From contig JAUXGM010000126.1 of assembly GCA_030622125.1 (NCBI GenBank), forward strand, positions 1 to 6,702: a stretch of 6,702 nt of DNA, in the 5' to 3' direction. The stretch is from a bacterium. Its GTDB lineage: Bacteria; AUK180. The notes beneath the pieces were generated by a model. It did no database searches and was not told the origin of the DNA. It saw only the letters and a list, made by a program, of their open reading frames with translations. Below, one piece after another: positions 1-6,206 of the stretch. Position numbers and translations under genes: made by a program. Within the stretch, counting starts at the first letter, position 1. The number at the start of each line of letters is the position of its first letter.

Positions 1-1542
1 ATATTCGGAAAATTTTATAATGAAAGAATGATTACAGGACATTTGAAAGTTATGGTAAGTAGTGATTTTTTATTATTTTTACAATTTACCCTTCTTACCG
101 GTTTGGTTTTTTTCTTTGCAAGCCAAAAACAAAATTTGATCCAATATGAGGAATCACTTCCGCAAAGAAGAATTTTTCTTTTCTTTTCACGGTTTATCCC
201 CTGTTTATTGATTACCATTATTTTTAGTTATCTGATCTTGGCTATTCATAATGAGGCAATGACTTTTGATACTTTTGGGATCATATTATATATTGCTGTC
301 CTTTTCTTCGTTATTGTTTATCTCTGGTTTTATTACAGAAACCTTTTCTGGATACTGCTTGTTGTTGCTTTTATTTTAGGGATACTATTCCCATTTAAGA
401 TTACAGAACCTTTAAATAATTCTGCTGTGCAAAGCAGCTGGGGATTTGAAACTCCAATGTTGGCGGCATTTTTAGTTTCACTTGCCTTCTATTTTTTCAA
501 TTATTCACATAATATCTCACATACGAACAAGGTAATTGTTATTACAATTTTAGTTTATACGATCTTGAATTTTACCTATTTGGGATATCAGACCTATTCA
601 CATTGTGGGCAACCGACAGATGTATTGGGATATGAAAACTATATATCGGTGATAAAATCAAGGGCTGGAGATATAAGGTCTATCTATTATGATCTTGAAG
701 CAAAAAAAACTTTGAGAAAGCCTCAACATAGAGTAAAAACATATCTCTGGGACTCCGATAGGATAATATACTCCATTGACAAAAGAATTATTATAAAAGA
801 CATAAAAGTTTCATCACACATCATTGAAAAAACCTACATACTTAATAAAGAAATAAAAAATTTAGATTATTACTATTTTACAAAAAGAATGATTACAGAT
901 CTTGATAGATTTTTTCATCAGGAGAATGGAAAGGTAAATAATATTTATTATTATACGGGGAAATCATTATCAAGATTGGATATTGACACATTTAAAAAAG
1001 AGATCGTAATGAAAGATGTCTCTTTAAATTCACCTTCATTGTCAATTTTAAGTGTCAAGGATACCAATTGTATCTACATTGCAACGCCATTGGGAATAAA
1101 GGAATCCACCATCGGAAAAGCAAATCTATTGTGGGATAATATTGGTATTTACTATACAAAAGAAGATAAAATATTAAACGAAAACGGAAATATTATTTAT
1201 GAGTTCAAGAATGATAATAAAAGTTTTGTTTCCCCACGGAAATTTGCAGACGGAAATAACTGGAAAACAATCTACAACGGTAATACCTACGATATTCCAA
1301 AGGATTGCAAATTTAATGGGGATAAGATTTATTACAGAAAGGACGATAAAGTAATCTTTTGTTATATAGATGGCAAAGAGATCGCAAGAATGAAAATCAA
1401 AACCAATAAAAAGAAAAATAGGGATAATTTTTTCATCTATCAATACAAGAGTGATTATTACCTCTTTTTGTATCGGAAAAATCCAATTCGGGTTTACAAA
1501 TTAGTAAGTGGTAAGTGGGAATTTTATGATAGGTTCAGTTAA
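1..1542 (+). CDS. Multi-pass membrane protein with C-terminal propeller-like domain, ABC-2 permease-like (5' end outside window)
   Basis: I do not recognise a named family; this is paralogue 1 of three. The frame is open from base 1. An ATG at 28 is possible but has no clear SD. Numbered from that ATG, the ExxLPxxR motif falls at residues 41-48, against 71-78 and 74-81 in the paralogues, so about 30 residues, including the first membrane segment, should lie upstream. Six hydrophobic segments are visible at about 12-31, 49-73, 83-103, 106-123, 143-159 and 168-188. After residue 190 the protein is soluble and strand-rich. It shares GIKE (356-359), ILNENGNIIY (382-391) and the end GKWEFYD with its neighbours. 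By topology the soluble half should be extracytoplasmic. Inferred role: transporter permease subunit with an outer sensing or binding domain, acting with its paralogues. Certain as a gene, tentative in function. Confidence 0.85.
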   Translation: MFGKFYNERMITGHLKVMVSSDFLLFLQFTLLTGLVFFFASQKQNLIQYEESLPQRRIFLFFSRFIPCLLITIIFSYLILAIHNEAMTFDTFGIILYIAVLFFVIVYLWFYYRNLFWILLVVAFILGILFPFKITEPLNNSAVQSSWGFETPMLAAFLVSLAFYFFNYSHNISHTNKVIVITILVYTILNFTYLGYQTYSHCGQPTDVLGYENYISVIKSRAGDIRSIYYDLEAKKTLRKPQHRVKTYLWDSDRIIYSIDKRIIIKDIKVSSHIIEKTYILNKEIKNLDYYYFTKRMITDLDRFFHQENGKVNNIYYYTGKSLSRLDIDTFKKEIVMKDVSLNSPSLSILSVKDTNCIYIATPLGIKESTIGKANLLWDNIGIYYTKEDKILNENGNIIYEFKNDNKSFVSPRKFADGNNWKTIYNGNTYDIPKDCKFNGDKIYYRKDDKVIFCYIDGKEIARMKIKTNKKKNRDNFFIYQYKSDYYLFLYRKNPIRVYKLVSGKWEFYDRFS

Positions 1543-1547
1543 TTTTT

Positions 1548-1552
1548 AGGAG
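1548..1552 (+). promoter_or_regulatory. Ribosome binding site of paralogue 2
   Basis: AGGAG lies six bases before the ATG at 1559 in the 16-base gap after the first gene. It fixes the start. The following GAGAAAAC string recurs before the third gene (GAGAAAACATTATG), suggesting that gene and leader were duplicated together. Confidence 0.8.
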
Positions 1553-1558
1553 AAAACT

Positions 1559-3196
1559 ATGATCGATGAATTTAAGAGGGCGTGGAATGAAAATAGAACC
1601 AGGGTTATTTTGGTATTTGCAGAGATCCTGGCATTTTATATTCTTATATCAACAAATTCGGTATTGAAGGGCACTATAATATGGGAAAAATTGAGTTATC
1701 TTTTCCTATATGCACCATTGATTCTTATTCCAATTTTCTCAAGTATAAAAAGGAAAATCTTTGAATATGAACTTTGTTTACCGACAAGAAGAGCTTGCTT
1801 GATCTTAAACCGTTTTTTGATCTCGTATATACCGATAATAATCTTTTTCTTAATAGGTAAACTTCTCAATCCGAATCTAATTGGTTTATGGAAGGGGCTT
1901 TTAACCGTTACATTGCTTTCTATCTTTTTCTTTACATTGATAATTTATAATAATTACTTTAAATCGTTTGCTTTAATTTACATCATTCTTGCAATTGGAG
2001 CTTTTATATTAAATTTTTATTTTTTTGGACATTTAATCTTTATTGGCAGAGGAGCAAAATTAAATTATATCTACTATTTCTTTTTTCTTCTGCCTTTTAT
2101 AATATTTCTTATCCATTTTTCGGATACATCCAAATATAAAAAGATGGTAACATATCTTTCTCTGCTTCTTTTTATTGGCTTTCATTTACTCTTTTACTAC
2201 AATGAAATGACCAGTAAAAGCGGAAAATCCTTTGATATTAACTTTTTAAATGGTAGATTATACATAAAAAAAACTACACCTCTTAGGTATTGGAAAACAA
2301 TGTTTTATGATGTTAAAGATAAAAAATTGCAGAAAAAAGTTTTTTATGGTGATTGTATACTAAAAAATAAGAATGGGGTTATTGCTTATGGCAATTGGAA
2401 TTTTATTGGATCAACGGGATTTTATAAAAAATTAAAAGATCAAAAGAAAGAAAAATTTAAATACGGAGATTTAGAATCCCCATACATTCTTTTTTATAGC
2501 ATAAATATAGATCCCAAATATCTTTATACCATATCAAATTCAGGAAAGGAACTTTTGAAAATTGATCTGAAAACACTGAAAAGTGAAATGGTAATAGATA
2601 GTATCAAGAGAGAAGGAGAAAAATATAAATATAAAAGTTATATAACATTTACAGATCGGAAAAATAATAAAAATTATATTGCATCATCTCTGGCGGGAAT
2701 AAAGGAATTGAAATATAAAGATACAAATATAATACTTGGCAAGAATCAGATCTATTATATTGATAACAAAAATATATTAAATGAAGCCGGTGATATTATC
2801 TATCAATCGGAAAATAAACCCAAATTACATACATATTATTTTTATGATGGGGATACGATAAAATTCCCGTATAACAATGAGGTTTTTTCATTAAATATCG
2901 CAAAATATCAAAGTAAATGGAAAACAATAGAAGGTAAAGCAATGGAAAGAACAACCGCTATGGGAGATATTATTGGAAAGAATTATTACAGCATCTCAAA
3001 AAATCAGATCACAATAAATGATCTTAACGGAAATAAAATACTTTCCGATACCATTGATAAAATTCCTCAAAAGGGATATTTTAAATTTAAATTATTTTAC
3101 TATGATGAAAATTATTATTTTGCCTTTATCAAAAATAGAAATGTCTATATTTACAGATCGGAAAACGGAAAATTTATTTTTTATGACAAAATATAG
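1559..3196 (+). CDS. Seven-segment membrane protein with large C-terminal propeller-like domain, ABC-2 permease-like
   Basis: Complete 545-residue paralogue 2; no named family recognised. The N-terminus starts with a basic EFKRAW helix (4-9), shared with paralogue 3 (EFKRVW). Hydrophobic segments lie at about 15-32, 46-62, 80-101, 113-130, 136-160, 170-187 and 196-213. The loop between segments 2 and 3 is basic and carries the ExxLPxxR motif (E71, L74, P75, R78) followed by R85-F86. This is where ABC-2 permeases place the cytoplasmic coupling helix that contacts the ATPase. The loop before segment 7 (DTSKYKKM) is also basic, so the N-terminus is predicted inside and the domain after 214 outside. 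That domain repeats strand-turn patterns such as LLKIDLKTLKSEMVI, with GIKE (380-383), ILNEAGDIIY (406-415) and the end GKFIFYDKI. Probable transporter subunit or membrane sensor; substrate unknown. It sits 16 bases after paralogue 1 and 12 before paralogue 3. Confidence 0.9.
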   Translation: MIDEFKRAWNENRTRVILVFAEILAFYILISTNSVLKGTIIWEKLSYLFLYAPLILIPIFSSIKRKIFEYELCLPTRRACLILNRFLISYIPIIIFFLIGKLLNPNLIGLWKGLLTVTLLSIFFFTLIIYNNYFKSFALIYIILAIGAFILNFYFFGHLIFIGRGAKLNYIYYFFFLLPFIIFLIHFSDTSKYKKMVTYLSLLLFIGFHLLFYYNEMTSKSGKSFDINFLNGRLYIKKTTPLRYWKTMFYDVKDKKLQKKVFYGDCILKNKNGVIAYGNWNFIGSTGFYKKLKDQKKEKFKYGDLESPYILFYSINIDPKYLYTISNSGKELLKIDLKTLKSEMVIDSIKREGEKYKYKSYITFTDRKNNKNYIASSLAGIKELKYKDTNIILGKNQIYYIDNKNILNEAGDIIYQSENKPKLHTYYFYDGDTIKFPYNNEVFSLNIAKYQSKWKTIEGKAMERTTAMGDIIGKNYYSISKNQITINDLNGNKILSDTIDKIPQKGYFKFKLFYYDENYYFAFIKNRNVYIYRSENGKFIFYDKI

Positions 3197-3208
3197 AGAG
3201 AAAACATT

Positions 3209-4867
3209 ATGTTAAAGGAATTTAAGAGGGTATGGCATAATTTTAAATATCATATCATTTTATTAACGGTAGCTGAACTATTTTTTATTATTTTTTACAT
3301 AGTAAAAAAAATTGAAGATCCCGTTACCCTTGATAATTATAAGGAAGTTATCATTATGTTTATTTACATAATACTTGCTTTATTTTTCTATCTTTTTTTA
3401 CCGATAAAGGAAAGTATCTCCGATCTTGAATTGACACTTCCAAAAAACAGACTCAAATTATACATTACCAGATTTTTAGCAGGCTACATCGCTGTTTTAA
3501 TACCATTTTGTCTTTTTTATCTATTTATTTTCCCGGATATAAACTTTTTTAAATCCCTTTTAATCTTAACACTTTTTCTTGTTCTTATTTTTGCAACATC
3601 TATCTATGCTGTTTATTTTAAGAAGGCATTTTTAATTTTCTTCCTCAGTTCCATAGGATTTACAATTATTATAAGTTTAATAATACACTTTTCAAGGATG
3701 CTGTACGGAGGATTTTTACTTTTTTTTATTCTTGTGCACTTTCATATAGCACTTCTGATCTATTTAGTCCCTCTTATTCCATTTTTTTTGAATTATCGCA
3801 AAAACTACAGTTATACAATGAAAGTAATGATTATCCCGTTCATTCTTTTTATATTTTTTATAGGATTTTATTATTACAATGAGATATGGACAAGATTTGG
3901 GAATATAAATAATTTTTCTCTCAATAATGGGATATTATATATCACAAAAACAACAGAATCAATGAATGAAAAAACAATTTTTTATAGATTGGAAGATAAA
4001 AAATACGCAAAAAAGATATTTTTCGGAAGTGAATGTTATTATAGGAATCGGTATGGCAAAATAAGAAGTGGAAAAATATTACTGGAAGAGTACAATAAGA
4101 TATATATAGAGAGTAAAAATTTTAATATGAAATTAAATTACTTTAAAAACAATGAGATCAATTATCCTTTCTTTATATTCCATAATCGAAATAGTGTGCC
4201 TGAATTTATATTTGTAATAAATAATGGTGATCTTCACCGTCTTTATCTAAGGAATTTTAAAAGGGAACTGATAATGAAAAATGTTGAACCATATAAACTT
4301 CTTAATAGTAGGATTTTAGGTTTTAAAAAGGGTAAAAAGATATTTGCTGCAAATTATAAGATTGGAATAGAGGAAATAAAATATCCCAAATTAAAAATTA
4401 TAATTTCTGATAATACGATATTTTTCCTTGATAAAAAGAAAAAGGTTATACTCGACAAAAATGGAGAACTATTTTATCGATCATCCGCAAAGAAATTTGA
4501 TAGTAGGGGTACTTCGTTTATTGAGGATAAAAGAAGAAGTGTTATTCTAAAAAATAAAATCTATGAGATACCGGGAAATGCAAAATTTATGAATGAAGAT
4601 ACCATCCATTATAACGATGGAGATAAAATTATTATCAGAAAAATTAGCGGAAAGGTGATCATAGAAGATATTATAAAAGAGTTGCTAAAGAAAGGCAGTA
4701 GATATGTAATTTATGAAGAAAATAATGAATACTATCTAATCCTTAAAAAAAGCGAAAAGAAGAAGAGAACAATATCTCTATTTTTTCAATTTGATGAAGA
4801 TCTGAACATTTTACTCATATATCGTTTTGAGAATGGAAAATTTTGCTTTTATGATAAAATAAAATAA
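3209..4867 (+). CDS. Seven-segment membrane protein with large C-terminal propeller-like domain, ABC-2 permease-like
   Basis: Complete 552-residue paralogue 3, last gene of the apparent operon. The start is set by the EFKRVW N-terminus matching paralogue 2 and by GAGAG at 3196-3200, eight bases upstream. This weak SD overlaps the stop codon of the preceding gene, so translational coupling is plausible. Hydrophobic segments are at about 14-33, 46-64, 86-108, 115-136, 140-160, 168-194 and 204-223. The motif between segments 2 and 3 is E74, L77, P78, R81, then R88-F89. The soluble domain begins near 225, with GIEE (386-389) in place of GIKE, ILDKNGELFY (414-423) and a terminal GKFCFYDKIK. A lysine-rich insertion (about 506-515) near the end is absent from paralogue 2. 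The membrane half and the extreme C-terminus are more alike across the trio than the middle of the soluble domain, which would suit divergent ligand specificity. Function is inferred only. Confidence 0.9.
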   Translation: MLKEFKRVWHNFKYHIILLTVAELFFIIFYIVKKIEDPVTLDNYKEVIIMFIYIILALFFYLFLPIKESISDLELTLPKNRLKLYITRFLAGYIAVLIPFCLFYLFIFPDINFFKSLLILTLFLVLIFATSIYAVYFKKAFLIFFLSSIGFTIIISLIIHFSRMLYGGFLLFFILVHFHIALLIYLVPLIPFFLNYRKNYSYTMKVMIIPFILFIFFIGFYYYNEIWTRFGNINNFSLNNGILYITKTTESMNEKTIFYRLEDKKYAKKIFFGSECYYRNRYGKIRSGKILLEEYNKIYIESKNFNMKLNYFKNNEINYPFFIFHNRNSVPEFIFVINNGDLHRLYLRNFKRELIMKNVEPYKLLNSRILGFKKGKKIFAANYKIGIEEIKYPKLKIIISDNTIFFLDKKKKVILDKNGELFYRSSAKKFDSRGTSFIEDKRRSVILKNKIYEIPGNAKFMNEDTIHYNDGDKIIIRKISGKVIIEDIIKELLKKGSRYVIYEENNEYYLILKKSEKKKRTISLFFQFDEDLNILLIYRFENGKFCFYDKIK

Positions 4868-4927: not shown

Positions 4928-4973
4928 GGGACATACCTCATCAAACTGATTTTTTTTTGTTGAGATGTGTCCC
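4928..4973. repeat. Imperfect hairpin downstream of the operon
   Basis: The 17-base arms 4928-4944 (GGGACATACCTCATCAA) and 4957-4973 (TTGTTGAGATGTGTCCC) pair with 14 Watson-Crick pairs, one G-T wobble and two mismatches. The T run lies in the loop, not after the stem, so it is not a textbook intrinsic terminator. At 61 bases after the third gene it could still shield the 3' end of the mRNA. The right arm overlaps the first copy of the tandem duplication that follows, so it may belong to the same small repeat element. Confidence 0.55.
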
Positions 4974-5099
4974 GGATTCTTCCTTAGATAACGATAGACC
5001 ACCCGAGAACAGTATAGCCAAAGGGAATAGAATGACTGTGTCCCGGATTCTTCCTTAGATAACGATAGACCACCCGAGAACAATATAGACAAGGGAATA
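4966..5099. repeat. Tandem duplication with 71-base period
   Basis: Copy 1 covers 4966-5029 and copy 2 5037-5099. The first 46 bases (4966-5011 and 5037-5082, starting TGTGTCCCGGATTCTT) are identical. The rest, to GGGAATA, differs by two substitutions and one deleted A. The period of 71 is not a multiple of three, so the same translated string appears in two different minus-strand frames, which argues against coding. The near identity implies recent duplication or an active repeat family. Confidence 0.85.
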
Positions 5100-5170
5100 A
5101 GGAAATAAGTTGATACGGGGTCATTATGAAACCCCTTCCCTCACCGGAGTTTACCCCGTTCTTCTTCGGA

Positions 5171-5202
5171 GTCATTCAGAGCCCCTTGTGGGCGTGGAAT
5201 CC
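5171..5202. repeat. Palindromic intergenic repeat, GTCATTC/GGAATCC type, copy A
   Basis: It begins GTCATTCAGAGC and ends GTGGAATCC. The interior forms a small hairpin, GCCC (5181-5184) with GGGC (5190-5193). The same frame with a different stem sequence occurs at 6616-6651, supporting a repeat family whose hairpin is conserved by pairing rather than by sequence. Short elements with GTCATTC and GGAATCC ends are widespread in bacterial genomes as dispersed noncoding repeats. Confidence 0.6.
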
Positions 5203-5225
5203 AGCATTTTCTTTCATCTTTTTTT

Positions 5226-5274
5226 GTCATTCCTAACTTGCCTGTCCTCGACCTGATCGGGAAATTAGGAATCC
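5226..5274. repeat. Palindromic intergenic repeat, GTCATTC/GGAATCC type, copy B
   Basis: The outer stem ATTCCTAA (5229-5236) pairs perfectly with TTAGGAAT (5265-5272). An inner stem, CTCGA (5247-5251) with TCGGG (5257-5261), includes one wobble pair, so two hairpins are nested. The GTCATTC start and GGAATCC end match copies A and C. It may be a composite of one element inside another. Confidence 0.6.
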
Positions 5275-5525: not shown

Positions 5526-5783
5526 ATGAAACAAAGAAAACTTTATAACAGGATCAATTTGTTGCGTCAAGAAAGAAAGCTTTCAAGAAAAGAATTGGCA
5601 GAAAAGATCGGCGTCAACTTCCAGACAGTAGGATATCTGGAAAGGGAAGAGTACAATCCCAGTTTGGATTTGGCATTTCGTATCAGCGAATGTTTCGGAC
5701 TGCCCATTGAATTGATATTTTCCACCAAACCTCAGCCGCCATTAAGCGAAGAGCTGATGAGGTGGAGAAATAAGGAGGAATAA
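5526..5783 (+). CDS. Small Cro/C1-type (XRE) HTH transcriptional regulator
   Basis: This 85-residue DNA-binding protein has a helix-turn-helix at about residues 20-39: S20-RKELAEKI as helix 2, a turn at G29, and NFQTVGYLE (31-39) as the recognition helix. It continues with YNPSLDLAFRI (43-53) and the amphipathic end LPIELIF (59-65). This layout is typical of small XRE regulators of about 65-70 residues that are often paired with membrane proteins. The tail from 66 to 85, with QPP and an acidic end, is longer than usual. I chose the ATG at 5526 because the core begins right after it. An in-frame ATG at 5508 would add MLYIYN but lies inside the promoter. No SD precedes 5526, consistent with a leaderless message. 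The stop codon abuts the next gene. It probably regulates its own two-gene operon; other targets are unknown. Confidence 0.9.
   Translation: MKQRKLYNRINLLRQERKLSRKELAEKIGVNFQTVGYLEREEYNPSLDLAFRISECFGLPIELIFSTKPQPPLSEELMRWRNKEE
5772..5778 (+). promoter_or_regulatory. Strong ribosome binding site inside the HTH gene
   Basis: AAGGAGG lies in the last codons of the regulator, five bases before the ATG at 5784. It fixes the start of the membrane protein and implies coupled translation. It contrasts with the missing SD of the regulator itself. Confidence 0.85.
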
Positions 5784-6206
5784 ATGAAAAAGCAAATGAA
5801 AAAAGTAACAGTGAGAATCATGCTAACGGTGAATTATTTATCGCTGTTTTCGGTCGTCGGCCTATTTCATGGTCTCAATAATGCGGAGGCCTCACCGTAT
5901 TTCTACCTTTGGGAGCTCTTACCTATTGCACTTTTAATATGGTCATTCGTGATCGTATTCTGGAAGAACGGTATGTGGAATATGGTGCATTATGATAAAA
6001 AGCTGGATGAGCGAGAAAAGGCCCAGGTATTGGAGGCTTTGCGTCTTGCCTACAGCATATTCTCGATATTAGTTCTTTTTGTCATATATGTAGCTGCCGT
6101 GATAGACAGAGGTCCAATAACTGTCATCGGTGCTGCGGGATTATTATATCTGGCTCACACGCTTCCCGCCGCTGTTCTGGGATGGAAGGCGGATCAGAAA
6201 AATTGA
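5784..6206 (+). CDS. Four-segment small membrane protein, partner of the HTH regulator
   Basis: This 140-residue protein has no family I can name. The start is ATG directly after the TAA of the regulator, with a strong SD. Hydrophobic segments lie at about 10-29, 39-60, 90-107 and 111-134. The basic N-terminus (MKKQMKK) and basic tail put both ends in the cytoplasm. The 61-89 loop is then also cytoplasmic and carries LDEREKAQ (74-81), then an amphipathic run into segment 3. A similar DERE-type loop occurs in several small membrane protein families encoded next to XRE regulators with the YNPSL motif; this is from general knowledge and unproven here. It may tune the regulator or act in envelope stress, but nothing in the sequence settles it. 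An 'AEAS' after segment 1 looks like a signal peptide end, but the later segments and charge pattern favour an integral membrane protein. Confidence 0.85.
   Translation: MKKQMKKVTVRIMLTVNYLSLFSVVGLFHGLNNAEASPYFYLWELLPIALLIWSFVIVFWKNGMWNMVHYDKKLDEREKAQVLEALRLAYSIFSILVLFVIYVAAVIDRGPITVIGAAGLLYLAHTLPAAVLGWKADQKN

Follow-up and report, generated by a model that had tools for sequence, protein, structure and literature searches.

What do three membrane proteins with large outer domains, encoded side by side in one bacterial operon, do, and do they act as a single complex? The question arises from a stretch of 6,702 nucleotides, here called the window, that makes up the whole of contig C100 in a genome of 2.08 Mb (96% complete, 192 contigs). 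An initial annotation had described three genes in it, at 1-4867, as tandem ABC-2-like permeases, each with a propeller-like outer half, and had proposed either a heteromeric complex or three ligand specificities. The locus probably encodes an ABC-2 exporter controlled by a YtrA-type repressor, in which each permease has an extra, seventh helix that leads to a C-terminal beta-propeller in the periplasm.

The operon and its regulator

The permeases lie on the forward strand: P1 at window positions 1..1542, P2 at 1559..3196 (545 amino acids) and P3, the last gene of the operon, at 3209..4867 (552 amino acids), with intergenic gaps of 16 nt between P1 and P2 and 12 nt between P2 and P3. Their mutual identity is 22-30%, homology between P2 and P3 is detected at E=1.9e-35, and all three align over their full length, which bears out the description of tandem paralogues in one operon. 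The coordinates first given for the trio were correct as well, except that P1 is open at the contig start and begins on another contig, at C48:5139. Its first 27 codons (L008:5139-5219) lie there, and the completed protein has 540 amino acids.

Positions 5220-5635 of C48 match window 1-416 at 97% identity, with 13 mismatches and no gap. These comprise five nonsynonymous and eight synonymous changes, where random changes would give 65-79% nonsynonymous. The simplest reading of the sequences is a single locus that strain variation split between C48 and C100. Duplication of P1 is another possible origin of the overlap, but both contigs terminate at it, the pattern expected of strain variants. The 13 SNPs (L008:5220-5635 against window 1-416) also suggest that strains co-exist within the assembly.

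Across the two overlapping contigs the operon reads gntR, ABC ATPase and three permeases. The GntR regulator comes first (C48 3917-4288, 123 amino acids), followed by the ATPase (C48 4288-5142, 284 amino acids) directly upstream of P1, and gene ends overlap at both the gntR/ATPase and ATPase/P1 junctions. This ATPase gene, which lay outside the view of the initial annotation, supports its proposal of ABC-2-like permeases. The ATPase matches PF00005 (4.4e-25) and has intact Walker A (GRNGTGKTT), signature (LSRGEK), Walker B (LIIMDEP) and H-loop (STH) motifs. Its best NCBIfam model is PmtA and that of the regulator is PmtR, with scores below the equivalog cut-offs (199.9 of 350 bits and 60 of 200 bits, respectively).

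The regulator matches PF00392 (1.7e-12), and a profile built from three GntR proteins aligns end to end with small solved GntR proteins, including 2du9, which we take to be Corynebacterium glutamicum Cgl2947. Judged by its sequence, the protein is a YtrA/PmtR-type repressor, with an N-terminal helix-turn-helix, a short C-terminal part and a place in an operon with ABC genes. Upstream of gntR, all three genomes that carry the operon have a TTGAC-N18-TATACT element and then a palindrome whose centre has the same position in each. The palindrome overlaps the predicted promoter, and its symmetry is equalled in 27 of 5000 column shuffles; it is taken as the candidate operator of GntR. A search for a second site elsewhere in the genome yielded none above control, with a pattern that, when equally strict, missed the operon's own copy and thus reveals little of the regulon. 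PmtR protects 36 bp across the pmt start site (PMC5080381), and YtrA-subfamily regulons mostly consist of one ABC operon (PMC4494728). Autorepression is likely by analogy, because the palindrome occupies a position equivalent to that of the PmtR footprint, which covers the transcription start (PMC5080381), and because the subfamily mostly controls a single ABC operon.

Membrane part and outer domain

By hydropathy, P2, P3 and the joined P1 each have seven segments, no more and no fewer, and 317-332 residues remain after the last; the seventh segment of P1 is encoded at 532..588 (+). Thus, the count of seven segments rather than six, first made on the two complete copies, extends to the completed P1. 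The loop between TM2 and TM3 carries an E..LP..R motif in all three permeases, within YEESLPQRR in P1, YELCLPTRR in P2 and LELTLPKNR in P3. In P1 it is a candidate coupling-helix motif (EESLPQRR, 148..171, +), and alignment places its counterparts in P2 (ELCLPTRR, 1769..1792, +) and P3 (ELTLPKNR, 3428..3451, +). The terminal GKxxFYD is likewise common to the three, as the initial annotation had read. The N-terminal EFKR(A/V)W that it also assigned to the family occurs in P2 and P3, but the completed P1 starts MIKEIKKIW.

Relatives of the ATPase provide a basis for comparison. The 80 best named loci for this protein come mostly from Bacillota, with a few archaea and one member of the Thermotogae, and the window's ATPase is at most about 39% identical to these named relatives. 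The typical locus among them encodes a GntR protein of about 125 amino acids, an ATPase and a short permease (about 210 amino acids) that has five or six segments, ends almost directly after the final one and thus lacks the outer domain. PF13346 was found in four of four permeases scanned from these loci but in none of six homologues from the present family at the Pfam cut-off, and P1-P3 and their family reached no permease family in Pfam or NCBIfam. Segment positions nevertheless correspond, with TM centres at residues 23/57/98/126/150/178 in P3 and 26/51/99/128/160/195 in the short permeases, and a seventh at 211 in P3. In a profile comparison, the loop after TM2 (K..i..yElsLP..R) falls in register with the P..R of the short permeases. 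This motif alignment scores 25.8, against at most 19.6 in 60 local shuffles, and also beats the reversed profile. A profile link to ABC2_membrane_5 is short and weak, covering about 45 columns.

The membrane part thus resembles ABC2_membrane_5 in its predicted six N-in segments and its TM2-TM3 P..R motif, and P1-P3 can be read as a distant ABC-2 module extended by one helix, the seventh, and by a new domain. AlphaFold models of P2 and P3 give this region a pLDDT of about 36-62, so that its fold is modelled at low confidence. Modelling left out an alignment that mixed in Bacillota permeases, because it placed their last segment on TM7. If the proteins were membrane-anchored propellers unrelated to ABC permeases and merely co-located in the operon, both the low model confidence and the missing Pfam ABC-2 match would be explained. 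This is highly improbable, however, given that they occupy the permease slot of an otherwise canonical cassette and that the operon contains no other permease.

The outer domain, of about 320 residues, is basic (pI 8.9-9.7). It is encoded at 589..1539 in P1, 2210..3193 in P2 (residues 218-545) and 3893..4864 in P3 (residues 229-552), all on the forward strand. Under an N-in topology, the cytoplasmic loops of six homologues contain 11-15 Lys and Arg residues and the outer loops 2-7. The C-terminal domain is placed outside because of this concentration of positive charge in the cytoplasmic loops. The genome encodes Omp85, and therefore the cell should be diderm and the outside the periplasm. A periplasmic location is accordingly predicted, in line with the extracytoplasmic domain first proposed.

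AlphaFold2 was run on six sequences, with P2 and P3 as the modelled proteins. In both, the C-terminal domain is all-beta. Most of its blocks reach pLDDT 70-89 starting at residue 321 in P2 and 333 in P3; values are lower before these points, and low-confidence stretches lie at 272-309 (P2) and 280-329 (P3). Foldseek and VIA-align matches to the two models are almost all propellers, among them Atg18, DPP4/8, EMC1, methylamine dehydrogenase and BamB. The best propeller Z scores, 9.5 and 9.4, are only modestly over background, and the modelled propellers are imperfectly closed, with full-domain rmsd values of 4.4-6 Å. The domain is predicted to be a beta-propeller of seven or eight blades, from these models and structure searches in P2 and P3 and by homology to them in P1. 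Structure prediction thus favours the propeller half of the initial proposal, and models the membrane part only at low pLDDT.

Relatives and subunit pairing

A permease profile search covered seven genomes of the class, that of the window among them, and about 380 others; besides the window's genome, two from the class contain the family, and none of the others does. A set of 386 genomes around another centre, mostly overlapping the earlier one, gave only a short weak match, and a contig scan with P2 as the single query found no relative. Weak matches in G001, G019, G023, G003 and G201 were treated as chance, being short and in some cases interrupted by stops. The lineage that encodes propeller-bearing permeases is poorly sampled.

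The two related operons have the same beginning, and their ATPases share 60% and 55% identity with the one in the window. In G005, gntR and the ATPase gene are followed by permeases of 590 and 541 amino acids, and the remaining 388 nt contain no third permease start. In G002, a permease of 516 amino acids follows, and 9 nt further on come 25 codons of another, which run to the contig end. A one-permease system in G002 was considered and ruled out by this open 25-residue start, MIRELKRLWYSKKIFIILYAIFEIL. Operons of this kind thus contain three permeases in the window, two in G005 and at least two in G002.

A permease tree joins P1 to the second G005 permease and the G002 permease, and P2 and P3 to the first G005 permease (support 89/90, unstarred), although the tree has long branches and its groups were named only after the fact. 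The test rejects a topology in which the window's three permeases form one group (p-AU 0.0066). These results are suggestive of two permease types, alpha (P1) and beta (P2 and P3), that predate the species split. Copy number varies, ABC-2 transporters work with two membrane subunits, and the tree gives two old types; a pairing of alpha with beta, in which beta has been duplicated, is therefore favoured over a trio.

The heteromeric complex of all three permeases was therefore the weak part of the initial annotation. P1, P2 and P3 do share one operon, and the five nonsynonymous to eight synonymous differences between strain variants suggest that P1 is under selection. An obligate complex of the three is nonetheless scarcely credible, as ABC-2 transporters have two membrane subunits and G005, with no further start in its remaining sequence, shows two copies only. 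Its other suggestion, three ligand specificities, could take the form of three separate homodimeric exporters that share one ATPase, each with a specificity set by its propeller. This would be in keeping with the low identity of P1-P3 (22-30%) and with the nearly equal divergence of propeller and membrane halves (23.7% and 24.6%, respectively). Alpha and beta types occur together in both G005 and the window's genome, suggesting an obligate pair, and no operon seen has fewer than two copies, so that independent homodimers are quite improbable.

Known systems and a proposed mechanism

The closest counterparts of the window's operon are the Bacillota gntR-ATPase-ABC2_membrane_5 cassettes, as in Blautia, Halothermothrix and Clostridium. 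They share its gene order, a GntR protein of about 125 amino acids, an ATPase of about 285 amino acids, six segments at matching positions and P..R after TM2. Their permease of about 210 amino acids differs in stopping at the last segment, without the seventh helix or outer domain. MacB, LptFG and BceAB-type ABC systems also have large extracytoplasmic domains, but these belong to other membrane folds and the domain is not a C-terminal propeller. Literature searches turned up no propeller-bearing ABC-2 permease, though such a silence argues only weakly that none exists. The predicted pump is thus of a familiar type, and what it adds is absent from its nearest relatives.

Two characterized systems resemble it in regulation. 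Staphylococcal Pmt (PmtR-PmtABCD), a phenol-soluble modulin exporter, also has at the head of its operon a YtrA-type repressor, which binds across the transcription start (PMC5080381). The window's operon differs in its one ATPase, three permeases and propeller domains, and scores far under the Pmt equivalog cut-offs. Bacillus subtilis YtrGABCDEF encodes the repressor YtrA, the ATPase YtrB and two permeases (PMC12772383), and so likewise combines a YtrA-type repressor with an ATPase and permeases. Unlike the window's operon, it has a second module, YtrEF.

We infer transport direction, substrate and propeller role from Pmt, Ytr and the anatomy of the proteins. Two copies of the ATPase would energise a permease pair, most likely alpha P1 with beta P2 or P3, and the pair would export a compound that is amphipathic or damages membranes. 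Above the pair, in the periplasm, the propellers may capture the substrate, pass it on or gate its exit. The repressor would let go once the compound accumulates, as in the Pmt and Ytr systems.

An ABC-powered periplasmic machine, modelled on FtsEX and BceAB, would instead use ATP hydrolysis to move propellers that act on or sense the envelope, and nothing would cross the membrane. A large conserved outer domain on every permease copy is consistent with this, as is the related Ytr operon, a cell-wall stress system whose role in transport is unclear (PMC12772383). It is unlikely, however, since both the segment positions and the motif of the membrane part resemble those of ABC2_membrane_5 permeases.

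If the locus is an exporter, it may represent a class of ABC-2 pump in which the seventh helix holds one propeller per permease and the propeller pair serves as a built-in receptor or exit gate, selecting or passing cargo in a diderm envelope; this generalization is tentative. Small GntR-controlled ABC-2 pumps are widespread yet minimal, and a propeller on every permease could help to reveal by what means pumps of this type recognise cargo or are coupled to the envelope. The early divergence of alpha and beta also predicts a subunit pairing that is open to experiment.

A Methanocorpusculum MAG (L090) has four tandem six-segment permeases (210-241 amino acids) after an ATPase, and permease multiplication thus also occurs without an outer domain. 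The window's genome encodes a separate ordinary ABC2_membrane_5 permease as a 242-residue open frame (L140, G000:C155:1624-2106). Downstream of P3, a unit of about 71 bp occurs twice in tandem at window 4966-5110, and window 4960-5240 belongs to an interspersed repeat family with 58 matches in the genome, many of them tandem (e.g. C74:2419-2840). At about 5529-6206, an Xre-type helix-turn-helix gene (PF01381, 5.7e-13) is followed by one for a hydrophobic protein of 140 amino acids, and GC content there is about 40%, compared with 25-30% in the permease genes.
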